Assembly: GCA_000310025.1 (NCBI GenBank)
Contig: FN649743.1
Span: forward strand, 681,513 to 745,512
Length of the DNA stretch: 64,000 nucleotides
From: Ectocarpus siliculosus
Lineage: Eukaryota; Sar; Phaeophyceae; Ectocarpales; Ectocarpaceae
Reading direction: 5' to 3'
Below are positions 31,818 through 46,598 of the stretch, piece by piece. A program made the translations under genes and the position numbers. The notes below the pieces were generated by a model. The model was given only the letters and a program-made list of their open reading frames with translations. It was not told the DNA's origin and did no database searches. The stretch's first letter is position 1. Each line of letters starts with the position of its first letter.

Positions 31818-34221
31818 GGCGAGTGAGTTGAGTGTTTCCAAGCATCGGCCGTCAATTGAGGCTACCGCGTTTTTCAGCCAGGTCATCATGATCACAAACC
31901 GCCGCACGTACCAGTAGTGACGGTATCGTGTGCTCTCGCACTTCCCTGTAACGCTCTGTCCCGCGGGCATTGGGCAATATTTTGCCTTCGCCCGTCCATC
32001 GGAAAATGGATACAATAGCAGTCCCTCACCATCAAATTCAGGCGTCAAAACGTCTGCCGAGGTTTGCAACGTTCATCTCTCCCAGCGGCAATACATGCGC
32101 CCCCCCTCGCGTGTCCCTTCCACGGAAAAAATATATTTTGCAGCCGCATCCGGTCCATAAAACCCTTTACCACTTCCAGGGCGGCCTAGTCTCCTACGCG
32201 TACCTACCCCGCTCGGTGTCAAAGCACAGAACCCCCAAGAGGTGTTCGCCTCGACGACAACATGCATACCGTACATGCGTTTCTATGACATGGTGTGTAC
32301 ACTTTTTCGCGTCGCCTGTTGCGGTGTCGCTCCAACCGAACAAACGTACGTACGTATGCGTGTGCCGCACACGGCGCGGCAGCGCTGCCGCGGGCGCCGC
32401 CACCTTCCTTGTTCGCACCTATCCCCAGTCAGCGTATTCTTCCGCCTTACTTTACTGAACAGCAACACCATTGGCACGATAACGAACAGCTAGAGATCCG
32501 GGAGCAATAGACAGACAAGCGTTCTACACGCTCAACGGAGTGATCACATTCCGGGGGGCACGTGAGTTGTAGCGGCACGAACGAGCGCGCAACACACCTC
32601 CCCCTCACGATTCACTCCGAAAAATACCTTGCTTGCAAGGATCTCAGGCCACCCGAAAAATCAGGCCGAGTTGTACGAAAACAGAAGAAACCACTTCGGC
32701 CAGGTGCTACGAAAACAAAGAGAAAGGACACGGGAAAGACCTGTTGGCCATGCCCCACGAAAACTCAGATAACACGAAAACAGCAACTATTTCCGTGAGA
32801 GGGGCAACGACAACGGACTGAGTCGGAGTCGATTGATGAGCGACCACAAAGCGAGGGAGCCACACGCGCACACAAAACACACATCTTCATCACAACAAGC
32901 CCTCTGTTGAGACAGGCGCGCCAGCCCAGCAAGAACACGAAAAACTACAACAGGCAGATCGACAGACACGTCTGCCCAGCGTCCCGTGGCCTCATCCTCC
33001 TCAACGCCACCACCGCCGCGCGTTCCCGGCTTTTGACAAACGAACGACGTTCGAGCGAGCAACAAACAAAAAACACACGCCCAAGCCAAAAACAAGGCGA
33101 ACACCAACAACCGCAGACGTGTGTGTGTGTGCGTGAACTATCCACCTACTGACTTGGGGAGCTTCGATACCAAATCGTCGTGGTGTTGGACATCCTCGAC
33201 AGGTTCCACCCCGCGGGTCGGCAAAGCCACGCAATTCTCTCTAGAAACACCGTTTTGCTTGTCCGGAAAACGGCGAGAACGGCTGTTGTAGTGGTCCAAA
33301 CTCATCATCGCACGACACTCTCTACCACCTATGCACACACACCAAATCAACCATCAATACATACATGCGGACAGACAGGGGGCCTCGCCATCCACCCTTG
33401 CTCATCGCGAGAGCCCCGCCGCCAGCACCACGGCGGGGCCCCGGAAACACGGTCTAACAGCTCGACGACACAAGAAAAACAGGCGATGCCGTCATGTACC
33501 TCTCTAAGGGCTGTTCGTCTCCGCCCTCCCCTGCCGTTCAATTCCGGCTCGATCCGTTCGCCCCTCTCGCGCGCGCCCGACACTAATAAATTTCCGATAC
33601 AGATCTCAAGGCGAGAGATGGAGAAAACCAGCGAGGCCGAGCACGCGCACACCGTCAACGACAACGAAAAGGCCTTGTCGGCGACAAGGAAGGCTCTAGA
33701 ACTTCCGCAGCTCAAGGGAATCCTGCTCTAATCACGATCCGGGGACTCAAGAGATAAAACAAACCATGATCAAGTCAAAATCCCGCCCGCCTACATACAC
33801 CCGCCGACCAAGTGCCAAGTACAAGATACCGAAAGACACGTAGAGGGAAAGGAGCGAGAGACAGCGAGACGTAGCACCGACGGTCGGACTCACGCGGACC
33901 CCCGAAAAACGTTTACGCGCAAAGGGCCGAGACGTACTCGTCCTCTCCTTCATATCTTCGCTTCTCGCCATCCAACTGTACCAGCTGTTAATTGTTTTGG
34001 GGTTTTTCCCAATTTTGATTTCGTTGGAAGGTCGATTTTCCCATTTTGGTGACGTCCAGTCCCGTTTTTTTTTTTTTTTCAGCAGATGACGCGGCAAGCA
34101 AACAAACACGCGACAACGACAGGAAGAAAGAAGGGGGCGAGGCAACACAAGCGAACAGGGGAGCCGGGCGGAAAGCGGAGGGTCGCAGGGAGGACGGAAT
34201 TCGTGAGCGCATGATCTTGTC

Positions 34222-37200
34222 CTAGTAGTGGTAGGGCTGGACGAAACCAGGCAGATACTGGAAATGTTGGTTGAGTCTGGAAATATCATGATGCCTGTTG
34301 TTTAGTAGCTGTAAAGCAATGACAAACGATGGCATTTGGCGACCGTCTTGTGCTGTGGTCTCCCCGTCATCTGGAAACACATCGAACAACAGGCACCAGC
34401 AAACGGGACGAGAACACGGCGTGTCGTCGTGCACACCTCTATAGACCATTCGGTAGCTCTGGGTAGGACACACAGCAGTCTCCCACAGAAGAACAAGAAA
34501 CAGCAACAAAAGGAGGACCACAACCAGAAGCTCCTCCTCTTTCTCTTCGAGCAAAAAAGACGACATCCCTAGAAAACAACGCCAGCAAATCCACAATCAC
34601 CACGCTCTTTCACCACAGCTGGACACACAAGCGCACAAGACACGGCCATGTGAGTCTCTTGTTTCGTTTGTTCCATGTGTGCATCTCCTTCTGGGTGGTA
34701 GCCTACATACCATACCACGTGCACACCGTTGGCGGTTCTCGAAATGGGTTTATTCACCGCTCGGGATGGGCTTCCCGGGTTCCCGGGAAGAGGAGGCGCT
34801 GGATGGGCTACAGAGGTCGGAACGGTTTCGAGTGTCAAGACAACACGACGAGCACCAGCACCAGGAACACCAACAGCACCAGCAAACACCAAACCAACAC
34901 CACCTCTACCACACCACCCGTACCAGTACTATATAACAACAGCAACCACCAAAAAGCACGGGCAGCCAGCTCACCAGCTCAATCTTGGTCCGGCACATGG
35001 GGCACTCCTCCGTGAGGGCGTAGATCTGCAGGCCGCAGTCCCAGCACAGGCCGCCGTGTCCGCAGGGCAGCATCACGGTGGAATGGTCCTGGTCGAAGCA
35101 GATCTGGCAAGAGTGCTCCCCCGCGGACCGCACGTCCTTGTTTGCCACCGCCGCTTCCCCCTGCACGGTGCCGTCGTCGTCGCCACCGTTATCGCTGTCG
35201 CTGCGGAAGGCGGGGGGGGGGGGGGGGTAGAGAGATCTTTCACTTTCTTGTTAGACTTGAGACAAATCAACAAGTGCACCACCCAGTGTCGTTTGACCAC
35301 CGCTAACGATAACTCGCAACTACTGCTGCGGACCCAGTGCCAACCCTGAAGTATACGGGAGTGCTGAGTACGCTCTCGATTCGAGCTCTGATGGACCGTA
35401 CTAACGGGCGGATGGGCTCTTGTGCTTTCGGATACATACTTAAAAACACAAAAAAGACGTCGCTGTGTACCTCTACTTGAAATACACAAGACCAAGACTT
35501 AGCACCTTTGCTGGATACATGCATACAGTGCATTACATTACCATGAACAACGTTGCGGTGTGCCATTTCTTTTCCATTATTTCTTGTTTGTCTTCACTTC
35601 GAATCAGCGCTCACGGCATTCGTGCCGTTTACTCCAGCCCGAGGTCACACAGAAGGGTTCCCCCCTACCCATCCTTCCTGCGGTGCTTTGCCTTCGATTC
35701 CTAATGCGAGTAAGAGAGCAGCACTCTCTTCCTCTGTGTACACGTCTCTTCCCACTAACTATAGCTTTTCAGGCCAGGATATTTTACTTGGATAATATAC
35801 ACACAAACAATGTCGCATGTGTACAGCTTGTACCTTTGGCTGCTGTTGCCCTGGTCCCCCGCAGCGTCCCCTGATGGTCGTGCTGAATCCGAACCAACGA
35901 CCTTCGCTTTGTTTGCTCCGCCGGAACAGAACTCCCTGAACTTCCGAAAGAACTCCTGCCAAAGCAACCAAGAAAACAGACAGATGTTGTGCTTAGACCA
36001 GTTGTTGTGTGCTTGCGGCTCGGGTGGTTTGTCTCCCGGGGGCGGGTAATCAAACGAGACAGATGCTAGTGTTCGAGTTGTTCTCATCGCATTTTCGAGA
36101 AAAGCGAAGCTACCGTACACGACACAAGACAACACACCCCCTGGACCGATTTTTAAAGCTCGATTTCTCCACAGCCAACGAATCACAGCGCCGAAAACGG
36201 AGGCGTTGAAGCCGCGTCGTCGAGAGTTTTCCGAAAACGTTGGCGTTTCGTTTATGCATCCTCTTCGTCGTGGCGGAACCAAGCTTGAAAATCGGTCCAG
36301 GGGGGTTGTTATCTTGTGTCGTATACTTGTAGTACGGTACTTCAAGACCCCTTGACCCTATCTATTTCGAAGGCGTTCGATGGATCTTGTCATGGGTGAG
36401 ACAGCTCTTCCACACAAGAAAAAAGATGACGCCTTGCCGCGCCGCAATATTTGCGGAATAAACGACCGAACGAAACGTCGTTTGTTTCGAAGAAGCGACA
36501 GGCGACCCCGTGCTCTCGCACGGCACCAGAAGTACCCGATGCAACTAAATAGAAAATAGTCGCACCCCGTTTCAAATCAACAACAACCGTGGCTTTCTTC
36601 CAACGCGAAATTTTGAATCCCCTGCATTGAACGCATAGCCTACTACGGCGGCGAACAAGACGCACGTTCGCTGATCCTCTACGTGTACCGTAAGAGACGG
36701 GGAGATACCACAAACCGCCTACCGGACCGATTTTCAAAACCTTGATCATCCCGCACCGGAAAGCGTGGCGGCGTCGATGGCGGTGGCGTTGGAACCGTTA
36801 TGTCGAGAGCTAGGTATGCATCCTCCGACAAGAGCTATCGTATGGTTAATACATTCTCCTCGTCGTGGGGTGATCGAGCTTCGAGTATCCATCCCTGGTG
36901 AGATGGTGTAACAAACACCTTGTGGTACCTACTTGAGGTAACCCAAACGTGTCTATACTCCCACCACGTACATGGCTTGGCACACCTTAACGACATTACC
37001 AGCAAAAAAAAATAGTACCGCAACGTACCTTCCACCACTGGTCCAACTCGCCCTGCGGAGGCGGGGTGAGCATCTCCACGCCCTCAGGAACCGAGTACAG
37101 CTTCCCCTCCGCTTCCACCTGAATTATCCCGCAAGCGTTGTTTTTCAGCTGTGTGCAATCACGCGGCTACATGGGGAGTATGCAAGGCGAGCCAGATAAC

Positions 37201-40200
37201 GGGCAGTGGCGCCAAACTTGCCAAGACCACATCGACTGCCCGCCAGACGATTAGACGCGCAACTTTAGCGGGTGGGGAATCAATCGATTGGTGATCTTTA
37301 GAAAGTAAACATAATCTCACAGAAAGACTACCCGTTCTGGTTTCGTTCACCCATCCACAAGAACGGCTGCTGTGTCGAGCCAGAAGACGCAAAAGACGAA
37401 GCACGCCCCTGGAATGTCGGAGTACAGCACCCCGCCCCTGCGACAGCCCAGGAGGATCGCGAGCTTGTCATTCATGCTCTGTTAGTTCCTTCGAAACTGA
37501 AGACACCTCCATACAAACACACGCGCGGCCGCTGCTCCTTGCCTTGCTGCTTGGAGCCAGCACACTTGCCAAGGCGTACGCCACCCCGCTAGCACGTGAC
37601 TCCTTTTTTTTTTTTTTTTTCGGTCCAACAAGATAAAACTCCACTGACTGCTGCGTAAAGGTAACCCCTCTTGTCTGTAAAATGTTTTTCTTCCACTCAC
37701 TGCTGTAAACGACTTCGACCCACCCCCTTCGATCTGCTGCTGTTGTGGTTGTATCTCGAAAGGGTAGTCTCTGATTTAAAATAGACCGCAGCGTTTTCTA
37801 AAAAAAAATTATCTCGAACGGTTAGATGGGCTGCCTTTCCAGGTCGTGAACTACAGCAGTAGGAACACAGAGCACACAGGCCAGTGTTCTTCTCAACCTC
37901 TTTGGCCGTTTGCCCCTCTCCTTCGTGGTGTGCCACATAGCTATGTTGTTACACATGTATATATTTTCTTATTTTCTGAATATGGCCCAACGAATCCATC
38001 TCTTCATGTATCTAAGAAAATAGTCCAAGATAGAATAGCAACGAACTCATAGCGTCAGAGAAAGCTACCTGTATTTCCACGGTTTCCGGAGCAGCACACA
38101 GCGATATCTCCCCTGTGGGTAATAGGCTCAACAAGACAGCAGTTTGGTAGCCGTCTTTGTGCATCTATCTGCATGTATGCTGATATGATATCATTGCATG
38201 ATACTGTACGTGGTGCAGTTCGGCAACGAAATTCCGGTACGTAATGGGAGGCTAGCCGACAACGAGCGCTCAAACGAAACAAGAAGCCCGGCAACAACAC
38301 GGACACGGCAACAACCACGGGAGTGGGAGGGGTACAGCAGGCGGACGAGACGGCCAGGAAAGGCAGAAAACGCGAAGAGGCGGACCGAGTGGCGCGAAAC
38401 ACCGTGCCGAAATGAACCTCTTACTTGACTTATCCCCCTCCCCCCCCCCCCCCCCCCCNNNNNNNNNNNNNNNNNNNNNNNNNNNNNNNNNNNNNNNNNN
38501 NNNNNNNNNNNNNNNNNNNNNNNNNNNNNNNNNNNNNNNNNNNNNNNNNNNNNNNNNNCCCCCCCCCCCCCCCCCCCCCCCCCAGCACTGCACCATTGCA
38601 CCAACCCCCCGCGAGCGATGACGTGCATGGGCTGGCTCGAGTGGCCCGCTTTGTCTTGTGTTGTTTTGTGTTGTTCTGTTTGTTTGTTTGTTGCTTGTCG
38701 CTACGGAGTGTGTCTCTCTCTGTCTATGTCTTTGTCTTTCCCTTTGCTTCTCTCCATCTGCTCAATTCCTTTCTTTCTTTTTCTTTTTCTCTTTCTTTTT
38801 TCTTTTTACTTTTTCTATCTTTTTCCAATCTAGGGTTACCTCGCATAGAGTGCAGAGAGGCGAGCGGAGTGGCCTAGACTATCTGTCGTTGACTTTTATT
38901 GGCTTGCGGACCCTCCGGGTCCATTTTATTTTCGTAACCTTTTTTGGGTAAGTTAGCCTGTGACCACGGGAATCGATCCCGTCAAGTGTTACACTAGTAC
39001 GGACAGAAGAAGGTACTGGGCAGAGAGAACGGAACGGTTTTTAATGTGAAGACAACAACACAACAACATGCACAAGAATAAGAATAGGTCCACGGTGGTA
39101 GATTGCTGTGTGACGTCATCACGCTATGCCCTATATTTGCGGGTTTTGAGCGACACACACTAATCGTCTCACAATACCCCCCGCCCCGCCCCCCAAAGTC
39201 GTCGCAAGCCACCATGCACCTTGGTGTAACATGGAGGGAGTGTGTGCAGGGACCAAAAACACACAAAAACTCTTCCGTTGTAAGCTAGATACATACAACC
39301 CGCCCGATTTGTCGGACGTGAGCAGCACAACAAGACCGCACTCTGCACAACTGACAACTGCTTGAATTGATCGGAAATTGCGGGGGTTCCGTGGCTTCAT
39401 GTTACCATCCAAGCCATCAAGGCGGCTGACCTTGTTGCTGCAACAACCCTTGGAGGGCCCCAAACCGTATGGCGATGTCTTTTAATGTACTCCACGCCAT
39501 GATAGACACATACCATCGGCGGGGTGTGGTTCGGCATGTGTCTTCTTTCAGTCATGGCGGCGGTGGTGCTGTGTTGGATTGAGTCAACTTGTTTACCCGC
39601 ACGCCTATACAGCAGTCAGTGCAATTTCACTCATGCCATTTGCGCTGCTGCGCGGTGTAGAAGGAGGGCACTTCATATTGTAGCCGATTGCGATCATGAG
39701 CCCGCGTTACGCACTCAAGCGATTTGCGAGAAAGGTGAATGCACGGCTCCCGTGTGTTCCAGTGAGTTAGTTATGGTGCAGCAGTAGTGCGTAACGGCGG
39801 TGTTGCGGTACATTTAACTCTCTCAAACACACGATCGGTTTGCCGACCGCAAAGCTTGTGTTATCTCGTTCTCTCACATTGTTCCCATGCTACAACCACA
39901 ACTAAAAAATTATTTATCGCGCAAAAAAGGATCATGCCCGGCTCGCCAGCTATCCACGGTACAACTCACGCCTGCAACCTGCAACACAGCACCGCATTCT
40001 GTTGTGCACAAGGAACGCAACGGCCCGTTGTTTGCAAACATCAAAGTACAACCCTCCTCGTGGGTACACCGTACACGTGGTCTTACAACTACGCAAATTT
40101 CGGCACGCTTTTAAAAACAACGTTCGATGGAGGCGGCGAAAAAACATCGGATGATTACACGGACACGAGCCGGACACACCCAGCAAGCTGCTGTTTGCTT

Positions 40201-40439
40201 CTCAAGCCTGCTCAAGCTCTGCAATCGCTCGAACCCGCACCGTCGTCTATCGCTCAACGCACCTTTAACTCCGCCGGTCTCTCCTTCGCCTTCATATTTC
40301 GGGAGACCGTCTCCACGGCACACCGTCCCCGCGCAAGGTCATCGTTCGTCGTTGTGTCGCTCCCGCAGGCGTCGCTCACGAGGACCGGGCCGGCGCCCGC
40401 GGCTCCGGCCAAGAGGATGGCAGCTAGCAAGGGTATCAT
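34222..40439 (-). CDS. Signal-peptide RING-finger protein, paralogue A
   Basis: Exons in transcript order: 40439-40263, 37118-37029, 35955-35834, 35200-34975, 34308-34222; total 702 nt, 233 residues, stop TAG. Residues 1-16 (MIPLLAAILLAGAAGA) are a strong signal peptide. A polar Ser/Thr/Asp region follows, then a conserved block (PAELK, VEAEGKLYSVPEGVEM, WWK), a linker, and a C3HC4 RING at residues 161-199 (CQIC, LPCGHGGLCWDC, CPMC) with all eight zinc ligands. RING proteins of this type normally bind a ubiquitin E2 and act as E3 ligases. No further membrane segment is seen. Exon number and phases are identical to paralogue B on the opposite strand. The last exon is the weakest part: phase and acceptor fit, but its tail is unlike B's. 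Intron 1 contains the 100-N gap; intron 2 holds MITE-like elements and intron 3 a SINE copy. Confidence 0.75.
35570..35785 (-). mobile_element. SINE, 3' part, in intron 3 of RING paralogue A
   Basis: On the minus strand this matches the body of the full element at 42815-43130. Shared blocks in reverse orientation include CTTCACTTCGAATCAGCGCT, CTTTGCCTTCGATTCCTAAT and CTCTCTTCCTCTGTGTACAC, all with minor differences. The tRNA-like head is missing or degenerate. Confidence 0.75.
36111..36340. mobile_element. MITE-like element, 230 bp
   Basis: Ends TACCGTAC and GTACGGTA; inner inverted repeats ACGACACAAGA and CCCCCTGGACCGATTTT pair with AAAATCGGTCCAGGGGGG and TCTTGTGTCGT at the right. It lies in intron 2 of RING paralogue A and has no coding capacity. 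Confidence 0.8.
36686..36931. mobile_element. Diverged MITE-like element of the TACCGTAAGAG family
   Basis: The left arm TACCGTAAGAGACGGGGAGA runs to GGACCGATTTTCAAAACC and TTGATCATCCC. A weaker inverted match (GGGGTGATCGAGCTTCGAGT) starts at about 36877 and runs to about 36931. Confidence 0.5.
38459..38558. other. Assembly gap of 100 N in a poly-C tract
   Basis: One hundred N with C homopolymer on both sides, in intron 1 of RING paralogue A. The true length is unknown. Confidence 0.98.
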
Positions 40440-41682
40440 CGCCGGAGTTTGCTCTTCGAAGTGACTGACCACCGCTTGGTCCCACCGCAACAGTAGTACT
40501 GGTGCCCTAAAACCTACTTGTGCAACGAGACAGGAGACTCTATTCTTCACATTTTCCATCGACCGGATCTCGCACATAAGTCGCCTGCCGGTGGGGGGCC
40601 TCCAGATGGCAGGCCATTTTGTGCGCGTGCAGGTGCGTCGCCCCCTAAATTTACCCGCCTCGCCCGACAAGTCGGGTGGTCGACGGGTATTGTCACTCGC
40701 TAGGTAGGGCTGCCAGCTCATGGGTGCTGTCCGTGGTGGTGGAACAAGAACCCTTGATCAATCACTCTCCTCTGCGTCGATGGCGCGCGCCCCGTCTCTG
40801 CCTCCTCCATGAGCCACCTTTTTTTCGCGCGCACGTTGGGCGCGAACGATGACGAAAGGGATGAAACAGTCGTCACGATGGAAGATAGGTAACGCTGTAC
40901 ACACCCATGCATGCGGCAGGACCGGCGGGGCGAAAGAGGTTGCTTAGGCTGGCGTGGCAACACCCTTCAACCCCGTCCCCTCACTTCGGCATGTCATGCG
41001 TGCGGACAAATATCACACTTCCAGTTGCTTCCAGAAATGTGTGCGGTGTGCGACGTCTCTCCGACATCGGGGGGGCCTACTCACTTGCTATAGACGAAAA
41101 AAAGAAGAAGCATCGATGGGACGAGGTAGCGTGCTGCATGATGGGGATATATATACCCCTCGGATACCGTGCAAAAAACAGTTGACATGAATGAGTGACG
41201 AAAAAAGACGATGGGCCCATCTTGCCGTGCGGTTGAGCACCTCTCTCGTCGATACAACAACCACGCCCACGATAGTCGGAGACGTTGCTGCTGTGCTACT
41301 GCTGCTCCCATTCACCTGGCTGCTTGTGTCAGCAGCACGTGAATTATTTTCCGGGGGAGAGAAAGAGCGGCGTCGCTGCTGCTTGTACAACGCCGCATCC
41401 GTTCGCGTACGGCCGGTGGCACTTGCGTCCTTCCCTTGGCCGTACTGGGGTGTTCTCCCCTCGGTTCGACCCGTTCGACCCAAGAAGACGACGGCATTCA
41501 CGGGCACAGCCACTCCTCTTCTGTGCATGTATGTACTCTGCCGAATCTGCGCCAAGAACGAACCGCAGATACAACGACGCCCGTCCCGTGTTGGCACCCA
41601 TTCCCCCCCCCTGCCCGCCAGCAATTAATAATCCTGATCCTGATCCTGTGTGGAAACACTTGTTACTGCACGGGAAATCATC
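40440..41682. promoter_or_regulatory. Spacer between the divergent RING paralogues
   Basis: These 1.2 kb lie between the two ATGs and must contain both promoters. One plus-strand ATG frame (41191-41628, 145 codons) with a hydrophobic stretch (VAAVLLLLPFTWLLVSA) is present, but it has no family match I recognise and may be chance. No clear core promoter element or tandem site is visible. Confidence 0.35.
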
Positions 41683-44600
41683 ATGCTGCCGTTTGTAGCT
41701 ATCGTCGTTGTCTTGGGGGTGTCGATGCTGGGGCCTTTCTTCGTGGGCAGCCAGGCGGACTGTTCCAGCAGCAGCAATAATTCCAGCAGCAGCGAGGAGC
41801 GAAGCGTCTCCAGGTGCGAGGTGGAGGAAGCCGCGCGGGCAATGCGCAAGAGAAAAATGCCTGTGGAGCTCAAGGTATGCTGTAGGTACATCAGAGAGAC
41901 AGTTCGATGTGTTTGGCGGTACGGGGAATAGCCAACTAACAGCTGCTTGCAGCAACAACAGCAGTATGTATTGTAGTAAATAGTAGTTGGTGTGAGTGCA
42001 GATCAACGCCACACGCAGCACCAAGTATGTAAAAAAAAATCAAAGTGGCTGCACGCATCGCGTGGTCGACCACCGCGAACCCTCCATCTAGTCTTATCGG
42101 CAGGCACTTTTCGCTTTTCGCCTGAATCCCAGAGAATCACCGCTCAGACAATCGCAATTGAACGTAACCACGCCTGCCTCTGATTGGCCGAGCTTTCCGG
42201 TGGAGAATCAAGTGTTAGACCACCACCTTTATGTTCTCTTATGTTCTGTTCTCCGTGGGTAAGATACGAGTAGGTTTTTGCAGGTACAGTCAGTAGTAGT
42301 CAGCAGAACATTCGGAAAAAATACGTCTCATCGTCTTCGTTGGATGAACACGAAGACACGAAGTTTGTTTGGATTGCTGAACGCCGCGTGCCAAAAATGG
42401 TGTTATGGAAGTTCGATGGATTGTGGTGTTATTATTTTTGTCGTGGATCCGTTACGCCGACTGCATGATATCCCAACCGGGCGTACAGTGCACAAGATAC
42501 CGCCTATACTATATTTCACCGGATCCCTCGTATTTCATTGGGTTGCTACCCCACCTCAACAGCCTGCATCTTCCCCATCTCCCGTGCGTCTGCGTCATCC
42601 CTCCCTCATCCCCAATCCCTTCACCTTGCAGCCCCACCCCCGCCCCCATCTCAATGCCATAGTCAACAACCCAACACATAAACCCGTCGCTTTGAACCTA
42701 TTTAAACACAACTACACGCACCCGAAAATTAAAAGTTGTATATAAGCCGGGGTACAAGAACGCTACCTCTGGCCCGTACGGGCACCCATCCACCGCGTCG
42801 TATGCCCAAGCCGGTCGCCCCGGTGGTCTAGTTGGTAGCTTCGTAACCTTCTAGAGGTCAGGTCAGGGGTTCGAATCCCGGCGTAGGCGAGCTTTTCTTG
42901 CAAAGTGAGTTTTTCTCTCGCTTCCGCTCCTGGCCAAGTGGTTAGCGCTAGTTCGTGTGTACACAGAGGGAAGAGAGTGCTGAACTCTTCTCGCATTAAA
43001 AATTGAAGGCGAAGTACCGCAGGAGGGGAGCGTAGAGAGAGGCTCTTCTGTGTGACCACGGGTTGGAATAAACGGGACTAGTAGTGCTGTGAGCGCTGAT
43101 TTGAAGTGAAGAACAAAAAAAAAAAAAAAAGCCCGGGCGGGAGCCCCCTTCCCGTTGGCAAGGCAAAGGGCGCCTTCTCAACAGCTACCAGAAATTGACC
43201 CTCCCTCATGTACGGTTGGAGTGCGTTGTTGGGCTTCCCATCTCCCTTGCTGTTGGATCGATCACGACGACAACCCCGTCGTCCCTAACCTAGTCGCTCC
43301 TCCTATCTTCCCAGAGTGCGGCGCAACCACCTCCGGTTTCATCCTTGACCACCCACAAGAACCCGCGGCGCCATCACCGACTGACCACACATCCACACTG
43401 AAGAGTACGCGGGAATAGGCGCAATCTCATCAAGTGTTACGGATACAGCACCACATCAGTTCGAGTAACGTTTCAGACCCGCCCTTACCCACTGGTACAT
43501 CACCGGTCCCTTTCCACTTGCAGTCGAGTTTGGCGAAACCAGGGCATGTATTGCACTCGCGACACTACAGCTCTGTCATGATTCCCTTTGACGCCTAAAA
43601 GGGCACCTCTACTCTATCCGCGCAGCGCCATAGTGTCGACGTGGACAACTGCGTCTCCCCTGTCCGGAACGCAACGTTGTCCCATCGAAATACCAAACTC
43701 CTTGTGAATCTTGCCGCTACGACGTAGACTATACAACAAGATTTCCGATGGGCGGTATTTGGAGAAGTACGACACGGCCAAGCCTAGCCAACGTACCCTT
43801 CCACCCTCGCCCCGTGCTGTTGCCTTTCCGAAGGATGGATGGTCCACAAAATGGGACGCCTGATCCTACTGAATCGCTGTGTGCAGCTTACACTCCTGGA
43901 CGGCTCTATCACGCTGATGTTTCATGGGAAGGCCCACCGCAAATATGATGTCCGCCAAAGTGGCGACGTCAGCTTGTCGACTTGTCCTGGCTCTCCCGCC
44001 CCCTCGCAGTACTTACAGTATGTACAACACGCGTTCATGTATGGTAGGAGGTGGACGCGAAGACACGCGTGGACTGTGCATAACCGTGTTTTGTGTGCGT
44101 AGGTTTCTCTTCCAAATGATGACAGCGAGTCGCCTTTGGAAGTCCGACCTCCCTACAATATGCTGAGCACCCACCGGCGGCTACCGGCGGCGACAATCGC
44201 GCAGGTGGAGGCGGAGGGGAAGCTGTACTCTGTCCCCGATGGCGTCAAGATGGTCCGTCCCAGTTCCAAGAGGAAGAAGGGCAAATGGTGGAAGGTGGGA
44301 TGGGTTGGTGGGCTGGCGTACTGTATGCGTCCCACGGGCCATGCTGCACGTTGGCATTGTTGTTGAGAAGGGGTAGGGGGAGCTGCTACTACTGCAACGC
44401 ACACGAGTTGTGTTGATGTGGCGCCGCGCGCGTGTGTGTGCTCAAGCTTTCTCGCTGATTCAATGAACTTGTAAACGCCTGGGGCGCGTTCTCGACAAAT
44501 TGTTGATGCTGTCGACGTCCCCTCTCTCCCTATCATCCCTTGCCGAGCGCACCATGGCTGCTTTCCCTTTTTGCTGTTCAAGAGTCCCAACGCCCCTTCT

Positions 44601-46598
44601 GCCAACAACTGCCCTTGAGACACCGAAGTTCTGGTGTTTGCGTCCTCCACCCCCGCCGCCCCTCGACCCACGAATTGGCTGTTCACTTGCTCGCGTGTTC
44701 ATAACAACACTTTGGTTCAAGTTCCGCATATTTAGCCACCACCTTTTAATAGTCAAAAGACAAGTTGCCCTGTTTAGCGAAAAACTCATCGCGCGGAGCT
44801 TGTCTGCAAGCTTGCCGAAATTGCACCTCTTGCCGGGACCGGCGCAAAGGCTGTGGAGATACGTGTATCGGCTTTGGCGGAGTGTCACAAGATTGTATAG
44901 AGGGATCACTCGCCTCTTCTTGCGGTGGTACCACTCGACCTTACGCGCATACATACCGGCGACCTTCCATTCCGTTTGCCTCTCATACCCAAAACGATTG
45001 GCAGAGGATTTCCCGCAAGACGAAGGACGCGTCTATTGACGAGGGTGGTTCTAATGATATGGCGAAGCCCCCAGCTTGTTTCGAAGAGGCGATGGCGAGG
45101 GGAGCGGCCGACGGCAACGACGTTGCCCCCGGCAGCCAGAGGTACGAGACCCGGCCCGCCGATGGCATGGGGAAACACGACTCTCAGCTACAAGGGGCGG
45201 GTGTTGTCTTGTCGGGAGCGAAGTTTGGGCACGGTGGAGGATTTCTGATGATCTGATTCGTAGCAGCACATTTTGCCACTGTGTGCCACCAGTGACTAGT
45301 CAAGTCTAATTGCTGACTTTTGACTTCGGCTGCTCTGAACATTAGAAAATGCGCCGGAAGAGCGCCGTGACGAACGAGGAAGGTGCGTGGACTTTTTAAC
45401 GAATCGGGATGCTGAAGTTGCAGGATACCACGTTGTGATGGAGTTTAATACGAGACTGATCTTTCCGCAAGAGAAGGTAGGTGTGTTTCTGTTACAGGGT
45501 GAGTTGTCGACGGTTTCACCTCGACAAGAAAAGCTGTTCGTGGTTGGGACACCAATGGGTTAGTCGTCGCCCGCTTGCACAACGTTTCGCCCGCCTGCAT
45601 CCCCCCACCCCCCTGCTTGGTGTACTTTGCGTCGCTCTGTTGTAGCATCACCATCATCGTTGCATACCCCGCATGCCGACTATGGGCTTGCTCTTCTGCG
45701 GAACGTCGACAGTACCAAAGTCACTCCTGAGATGTATGTCTCTGCTTCTTCCTCCTCAAATCAGTGGCGACGGTGACATTAGTGGGGAGGGGGAGGCGGC
45801 GGGAAAGGACTTGCGCTCTGCCGGGGAGCGCGCTTGCCAGATCTGCTTCGACCAAGACTATTCCACCGTGATGCTGCCTTGCGGCCACGGCGGCTTGTGC
45901 TGGGAGTGCGGGCTGCACATCTACACGCTAACGGAGGAGTGCCCCATGTGCCGAACCAAGATTGAGCTGGTGAGCGAGAGTGCGGGGGGCTACTATTGCA
46001 AGCACATGACAGACAAGCATCCGAGCATTTGGACCCTGCCCGCTACTGTTTCTTCGTTCGCTCCAGACCGCCCCTCCTTTTTCCCGGGTGGCTTTCTCCG
46101 ACGGCCGTCCTACTACTGCGACGGCAAGTTTCGCATTAGCTACTAGTTGAGCGATCAAACAAACTCAGGACTCGCGAAAGCGGGAACAAGGCCAGGGTAA
46201 CGAGGACGAGTTCGTCCACTCCACCGCCTGCCAACCCTCGCGGTCGAAAAACCCAGCGTCAGGAACACAGACTGAACCTCGATCGAATCAATCGTGATAC
46301 ACGAATGCACCCTTTGTGGGTAGTTAGTTCGCGCATGACCAAGGAAGGTGAACCGGTACTGAGAAGAGACTTGAGTAGACATTTATCATTGAGACGACGA
46401 CAACAACAAATAAATGTCCACCAGGCGATGTCGCCCCCCTTCAACTGTTTTCTCTGAGTATCGTTCCTGCTTCTGTCGCGCTCCGCTTCATCTCTCGGTC
46501 AGCTCGTCCCACTGGATAACGAGAACAAGCGATTCGAAGGCGGGTGTGAGTTCGTGTCCTCCTCAGCTGCCTTCGGCAAGGACGGGAAAACGCTGTAG
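41683..46598 (+). CDS. Signal-peptide RING-finger protein, paralogue B
   Basis: Exons 41683-41874, 44205-44294, 45005-45141, 45765-45969, 46503-46598; total 720 nt, 239 residues, stop TAG. All borders are GT..AG and in phase. Residues 1-26 form a signal peptide (MLPFVAIVVVLGVSMLGPFF, then GSQA before an acidic residue). Next come a Ser-rich stretch encoded partly by CAG triplets, a basic segment (RKRK), the shared block PVELK-VEAEGKLYSVPDG...WWK, a linker ending GSQ, and a C3HC4 RING at residues 164-202 (CQIC, LPCGHGGLCWEC, CPMC). The 55 residues around the RING match paralogue A at 48 positions, while signal peptides, linkers and tails have diverged. Probable E3 ubiquitin ligase from the domain. 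A luminal, secreted or periplastid location is implied by the N-terminus but not proven. Intron 1 carries a full SINE. Confidence 0.78.
42815..43130 (+). mobile_element. tRNA-derived SINE, full copy with poly-A
   Basis: The head carries an A box (TGGTCTAGTTGG, 42824-42835) and a B box (GGTTCGAATCC, about 42868) at tRNA spacing, but the anticodon arm does not fold normally, so this is not a functional tRNA. A second A-box-like TGGCCAAGTGG follows at about 42931, which suggests a composite head. A unique body follows and the element ends with 16 A at 43115-43130. It lies in intron 1 of RING paralogue B. Confidence 0.8.

Follow-up and report, generated by a model that had tools for sequence, protein, structure and literature searches.

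Divergently oriented C3HC4 RING genes of Ectocarpus siliculosus with a probable ER-targeting N-terminus

Gene structure and paralogy

A 64,000-nucleotide stretch of Ectocarpus siliculosus DNA (assembly GCA_000310025.1, contig FN649743.1, positions 681,513 to 745,512 of the forward strand; GC about 53%), here called the window and numbered from its first letter, carries a real, conserved pair of RING genes whose predicted products share a hydrophobic start of the type that directs proteins to the endoplasmic reticulum (ER). As an earlier, sequence-only reading had proposed, the two are divergent paralogs: gene A on the minus strand and gene B on the plus strand lie head to head, with start codons 1,243 bp apart. 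Gene A spans 33913-40439 and has a product of 228 aa, while that of B is 239 aa, or 273 aa if a longer exon 2 is used. All introns of both genes have a GT donor and an AG acceptor, and intron 1, as calculated from the coordinates, measures 3.1 kb in A and 2.2-2.3 kb in B. The exons and the region between the genes are as follows.

40263..40439, minus strand: A exon 1; ATG, hydrophobic N-terminus MIPLLAAILLAGAAGAGPVLVS, then an RCxVE...ELK block; full-length alignment with B exon 1 (E 2.8e-7); cleavage-matrix score 10.75 between AGA and GP
37029..37118, minus strand: A exon 2; VEAEGKLYSVPEGV...WWK; 18/30 residues identical to B exon 2 (E 2e-10)
35834..35955, minus strand: A exon 3, linker; CAG acceptor and GT donor; phase and position match B exon 3
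34975..35200, minus strand: A exon 4, C3HC4 RING; zf-C3HC4_3, E 3.5e-14; 47/54 residues the same in B
33913..33984, minus strand: A exon 5; LVQLDGEKRRYEGEDEYVSALCA and stop; tblastn with B exon 5, 12/23 identical
40440..41682, no strand: intergenic region common to both start codons, delimited by the two ATGs; a possible bidirectional promoter, judged by that position
41683..41874, plus strand: B exon 1; ATG, hydrophobic N-terminus MLPFVAIVVVLGVSMLGPFFVGS, a stretch rich in Ser that holds two N-glycosylation sequons, and an RCEVE...ELK block
44205..44294, plus strand: B exon 2; an alternative start at 44103 gives the longer form, also open and in phase
45005..45141, plus strand: B exon 3, linker
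45765..45969, plus strand: B exon 4, C3HC4 RING; zf-C3HC4_3, E 2.6e-14
46503..46598, plus strand: B exon 5; LVPLDNENKRFEGG...GKTL and stop

The alignments listed above, the shared exon structure and an inverted repeat formed by the two RING exons (arms 34969-35160 and 45784-45975, 86%) show A and B to be inverted duplicates of one predicted gene for a small C3HC4 RING protein. The linker peptide of B exon 3 gave no match to A exon 3 at E <= 1.

The sequence-only reading had described five exons with identical phases in the two genes, and the coding exons do start in phases 0,0,0,2,0 in both A and B, but its own exon 5 of A, ending at 34222, was wrong. The peptide encoded there has no counterpart in the B region, and that exon was rejected. 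The homologous exon 5 lies outside the interval first considered, where the B exon-5 peptide matches the minus strand at 33984-33916 (12 of 23 residues identical, E 4e-4 over the window); the match starts directly after a CAG in phase 0, with the caveat that the tract before this acceptor is poor in pyrimidines. Read-through past exon 4, which in B would remain open for 58 codons, was also rejected, on the grounds that a GTGAGC donor is common to both genes, that the sequence beyond it diverges and that a homologous exon 5 is present in each. The start codon of A was chosen for its alignment with that of B, because the A frame is itself open upstream and contains three further in-frame ATGs; in B, stops lie just upstream and the chosen ATG is the only one after them.

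Several introns contain features of their own. Intron 1 of B holds, at 42810-43130, a dispersed repeat of ~320 bp whose head looks tRNA-like by eye and whose end is A-rich; it is probably a tRNA-derived short interspersed element. With 40 of 1,694 first-look candidates scored, at least 41 matches are known, the repeat itself among them, and 40 of these are 96-100% identical; ARAGORN called no tRNA in the tRNA-like head. An older copy, about 80% similar, is found at 35577-35743 in intron 3 of A, and intron 1 of A contains a 100-base gap of N (38459-38558) with runs of C on both sides.

The RING domain and its relatives

The C3HC4 RING described from the sequence is present in both proteins. The Pfam family zf-C3HC4_3 matches A with 52.7 bits (E 3.5e-14) and B with 53.2 bits (E 2.6e-14), above a cut-off of 27, and the eight zinc ligands stand in C3HC4 order and are all invariant between A and B. 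Within the RING block 47 of 54 residues are identical, which becomes the 48 of 55 first reported when the common Lys just before the block is included. The block also carries CQIC, CPMC and a following Arg, which we take to be positions usual in RINGs that bind a ubiquitin-conjugating enzyme (E2). Based on Nei-Gojobori estimates of nonsynonymous (dN) and synonymous (dS) divergence between the genes, the RING block (dN 0.058, dS 0.39; dN/dS about 0.15) appears to be under purifying selection, and its intactness suggests that both proteins may act as ubiquitin ligases (E3s). The corresponding values are dN 0.26 and dS 0.80 for exon 2, dN 0.48 and dS 2.85 for the later part of exon 1, and dN 0.37 with saturated dS for exon 5.

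Synonymous differences occur at 11 of ~36 sites in the RING block versus ~44 of 69 in the four other blocks pooled (Fisher p 0.002 on rounded counts). Such a deficit would be expected if the RING exon had undergone gene conversion or were under constraint.

Among solved structures the closest RINGs are those of cIAP1/2, XIAP and MEX3C, joined by MUL1 when a longer query is used. The resemblance is to their zf-C3HC4_3 RINGs: the full-strength Pfam matches of A and B were to RING families only, and no BIR, KH or BAM domain was reported in either. In the genome that was searched (189.5 Mb in 492 contigs), the two RINGs of the window score highest among 34 zf-C3HC4_3 matches with E <= 0.001. A query of A exons 2-4 matched five places in the pair itself and two distant RINGs, C26 and C476 (37% and 32% identical), at E <= 0.01, and a query of B exons 1-3 found only the A/B pair at E <= 0.02, the next match having an E of 0.29. 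A large local family was rejected, since at these thresholds the queries reached, beyond the pair, only these two distant RINGs, which show other architectures; that of C476 follows a protein-kinase-like frame (by eye). A pattern search of viral contigs gave 4 matches, none of which was confirmed as a relative, an NCBIfam scan of A gave no match, and searches of open-access literature turned up no description of the two genes.

The hydrophobic N-terminus

An alignment of exon 1 between A and B covers all 64 residues, beginning at the ATG and ending at the phase-0 donor, with 28% identity (E 2.8e-7), and B exons 1-3 used as a whole-genome query match A exon 1 at E 0.015. The best 19-residue hydropathy in the N-terminus is 2.06 in A and 2.41 in B, compared with best means of 0.76 and 0.78 for segments starting past residue 30, which bears out the earlier statement that neither protein has another membrane segment. 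Hydropathy, membrane insertion and signal cleavage were scored on the Kyte-Doolittle, Hessa and von Heijne scales, respectively, and each column of the cleavage matrix sums to 161, as expected for its data set.

A clear secretory signal had been claimed for each protein. This holds for A, whose cleavage-matrix score of 10.75 is equalled or exceeded at 0.8% of 476 control ATGs (a set that may include the genes' own starts), but not for B, whose score of 3.88, between SQA and DC, is reached by 16% of the same controls. By these measures the N-terminus of A looks like a cleaved signal peptide, and that of B may be either a signal peptide or a membrane anchor.

Because an equally hydrophobic start occurs in 30 of the 621 ATG-started 40-codon frames of the window, again a set that may include the genes' own starts, a single such start alone would mean little. 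The retention of the segment in both copies was compared with simulated drift (5,000 simulations per gene, uniform random changes without stops). After change at 30 of 66 nucleotides, a 22-residue stretch lacking D, E, K, R, H, N and Q was kept in 0.8% of simulations starting from A and 0.9% of those starting from B, and a 12-residue hydropathy of at least 2.3 was kept in 3.3% and 10.6%, respectively; by the latter measure, the case for kept hydrophobicity from B alone is weak. Because exon 1 aligns from the ATG and its hydrophobicity has been kept despite heavy change, the predicted ER targeting of A and B is probably real. These comparisons support a view of the two as RING E3-like proteins with a conserved putative ER-targeting segment at the N-terminus.

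The same alignment bears on the possibility that the gene models are in error, with the main transcript using another splice pattern for exon 1, or A starting at an upstream ATG, and the proteins being cytosolic and without a signal. The open A frame with its three upstream ATGs and the long first intron of each gene are what such an error might look like, but exon 1 is alignable throughout between the two genes, with a common ATG and a common phase-0 donor, and its hydrophobicity has been kept; we regard this explanation as improbable.

Possible destinations and known counterparts

A RING needs an E2 and ubiquitin, and the ER lumen is not known to provide either, so a luminal RING would be without both unless it were carried on to the periplastid compartment. 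As the best single explanation, though one that could well prove wrong, we tentatively propose that A and B are soluble RING E3s that pass through the ER on their way to this compartment. The hydrophobic segment would serve as a signal peptide, clearly in A and less clearly in B, and the chain would enter the ER around the complex plastid; lacking both an ER-retention tail and an aromatic +1 residue, it would be carried over the next membrane into the periplastid compartment by the SELMA translocon, where a soluble RING E3 could take ubiquitin from a periplastid E2 and modify imported or resident proteins. Neither protein has a KDEL/HDEL-like tail, the ends being VSALCA and GKDGKTL, and the residue at +1 of the best cleavage site is not aromatic in A or B. 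This last feature fits the periplastid route, one report describing periplastid proteins as lacking an aromatic +1 residue (PMC12136025).

The genome is photosynthetic, with 87 matches to light-harvesting proteins, and the Der1 family is represented at four loci, by 8 exon matches of which 7 exceed the cut-off. Candidate signal exons lie upstream of Der1 at two of the four and presumably belong to the Der1 genes. At L062 and L063 (the C23 and C12 Der1 loci), frames that precede the Der1 domain contain acidic, Asp/Glu-rich stretches following an RGG motif, with exons resembling signals close by (by eye); these look like symbiont-type Der1 genes. Signal exons of light-harvesting proteins were sought as a native control, and none was recognised in four loci.

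A number of observations weigh against the periplastid interpretation. The uncharged stretches of 22 residues in A and 23 in B, with 19-residue hydropathy above 2, are long enough for anchors, the cleavage score of B is marginal, and both proteins start without the basic residues with which signal peptides usually begin. By counting, the first 22 codons are near neutral (dN 0.66, dS 0.80). The region that follows the signal is acidic rather than transit-like, residues 23-42 having a net charge of -2 in both A and B, compared with +2 and +1 over 20 residues after two candidate Der1 signal exons (cut points by eye). The Ser/Thr-rich and then basic stretch described in the sequence-only reading is recognisable only loosely: Ser and Thr make up 50% of residues 23-42 in B and 20% in A, and these residues are net acidic. 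In a diatom assay, precursors with acidic net charge stayed in the ER, apart from one construct, at -2 or -1, that still reached the periplastid compartment in part (PMC3017844). Finally, the SELMA E3 of diatoms (ptE3P, or E3P), which serves periplastid import in algae with red-derived complex plastids, is described as a protein of 537 aa with one transmembrane helix, whereas A and B have 228 and 239 (or 273) aa and, by hydropathy, no membrane segment past the N-terminus; the comparison is by description (PMC5756292). The suggestion that A and B are candidate periplastid or secretory-pathway E3s stands, then, as far as the RING and the putative ER-targeting segment are concerned, its SELMA component being weakly supported in view of the acidic post-signal region and the dissimilarity to the described diatom E3.

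If the N-terminus instead stayed uncleaved as an anchor, its tip lying in the lumen of the ER, the RING would face the cytosol, the usual workplace of RING E3s, and A and B would be ordinary membrane-tethered E3s that pose no topological puzzle. The length and hydropathy of the uncharged stretches and the marginal score of B suit such an arrangement. The strong cleavage score of A does not, and values on the membrane-insertion scale (best 19 residues, +1.98 in A and +0.78 in B) do not favour a stable anchor. Acidic residues after the hydrophobic stretch are also opposite to the positive-inside expectation: by the charge-difference rule they disfavour a cytosolic C-terminus, so the net charge of -2 would favour a luminal one. 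The two sequons of B, 9-10 residues past the stretch, are compatible with a luminal position, though not proof of it, and for the plant protein ATL9, which also has a hydrophobic N-terminus followed by a RING, the authors themselves propose a RING in the ER lumen (PMC3009710). On balance we consider the anchor somewhat unlikely, though it is the chief competitor of the periplastid proposal.

Alternatively, A and B could be ER-luminal, secreted, cell-wall or vacuolar proteins whose RING either serves as a zinc module for structure or protein binding instead of as a ligase, or has an extracellular role. An oxidising lumen is a poor setting for a cysteine-rich zinc site, and the strong conservation of the RING, including the usual E2-binding positions, points to a ligase; the signal, the lack of a retention tail and the acidic post-signal region would nevertheless suit this alternative, which we hold to be quite unlikely. 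It has precedents in the lumenal RING proposed for ATL9 (PMC3009710) and in a galling insect, grape phylloxera, for which 138 RING proteins that are putatively secretory and have no transmembrane domain (SPRINGs) are reported (PMC6892190). The SPRINGs combine a signal peptide and a RING with no transmembrane domain, and they resemble A and B in their small size (median 252 aa) and in often being adjacent duplicates, but they form a large insect family of putative host-manipulation effectors with a median dN/dS of 0.57 for gene families as a whole, against two genes and ~0.15 in the RING block here (PMC6892190). A fits the SPRING pattern; in B the signal could be an anchor.

Two further groups combine an N-terminal hydrophobic segment with a RING. 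The plant ATL family is defined by a RING-H2 with three histidines, a pattern absent from the C3HC4 RINGs of A and B, although the RING of ATL9 has also been called C3HC4 (PMC3009710). PA-TM-RING proteins have a signal peptide and a RING (PMC4021871), a combination predicted also for A and, less clearly, B, which differ in having no second membrane segment and no PA domain (Pfam, E <= 1, proteins without exon 5). As for import into complex plastids, ptE3P has been placed in the Hrd1/Der3 row of a comparison (PMC6610115), a Hrd1 homologue is said to be unknown in other chromists (PMC5756292), and in apicomplexans the RING domains of putative apicoplast E3s were reported to be active in vitro, tagging having been unsuccessful (PMC3681736).

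Elsewhere in the window, a minus-strand open frame of 295 aa at 54467-55351 matches ankyrin repeats just below threshold (E 1.1e-5, 26.4 bits versus a cut-off of 27.3), the sole Pfam match among 10 frames scanned of the 226 listed.

The ubiquitin ligase step of periplastid import has been described mainly from diatoms and apicomplexans, and A and B provide concrete candidates for it. It is a more doubtful proposition that they represent a soluble, membrane-free class of periplastid E3, separate from the diatom SELMA E3 with its single helix, in which a divergent pair has diversified outside the RING. Should A and B turn out to be luminal or secreted, this alga would offer an unusual example of a conserved RING that lies outside the cytosol.

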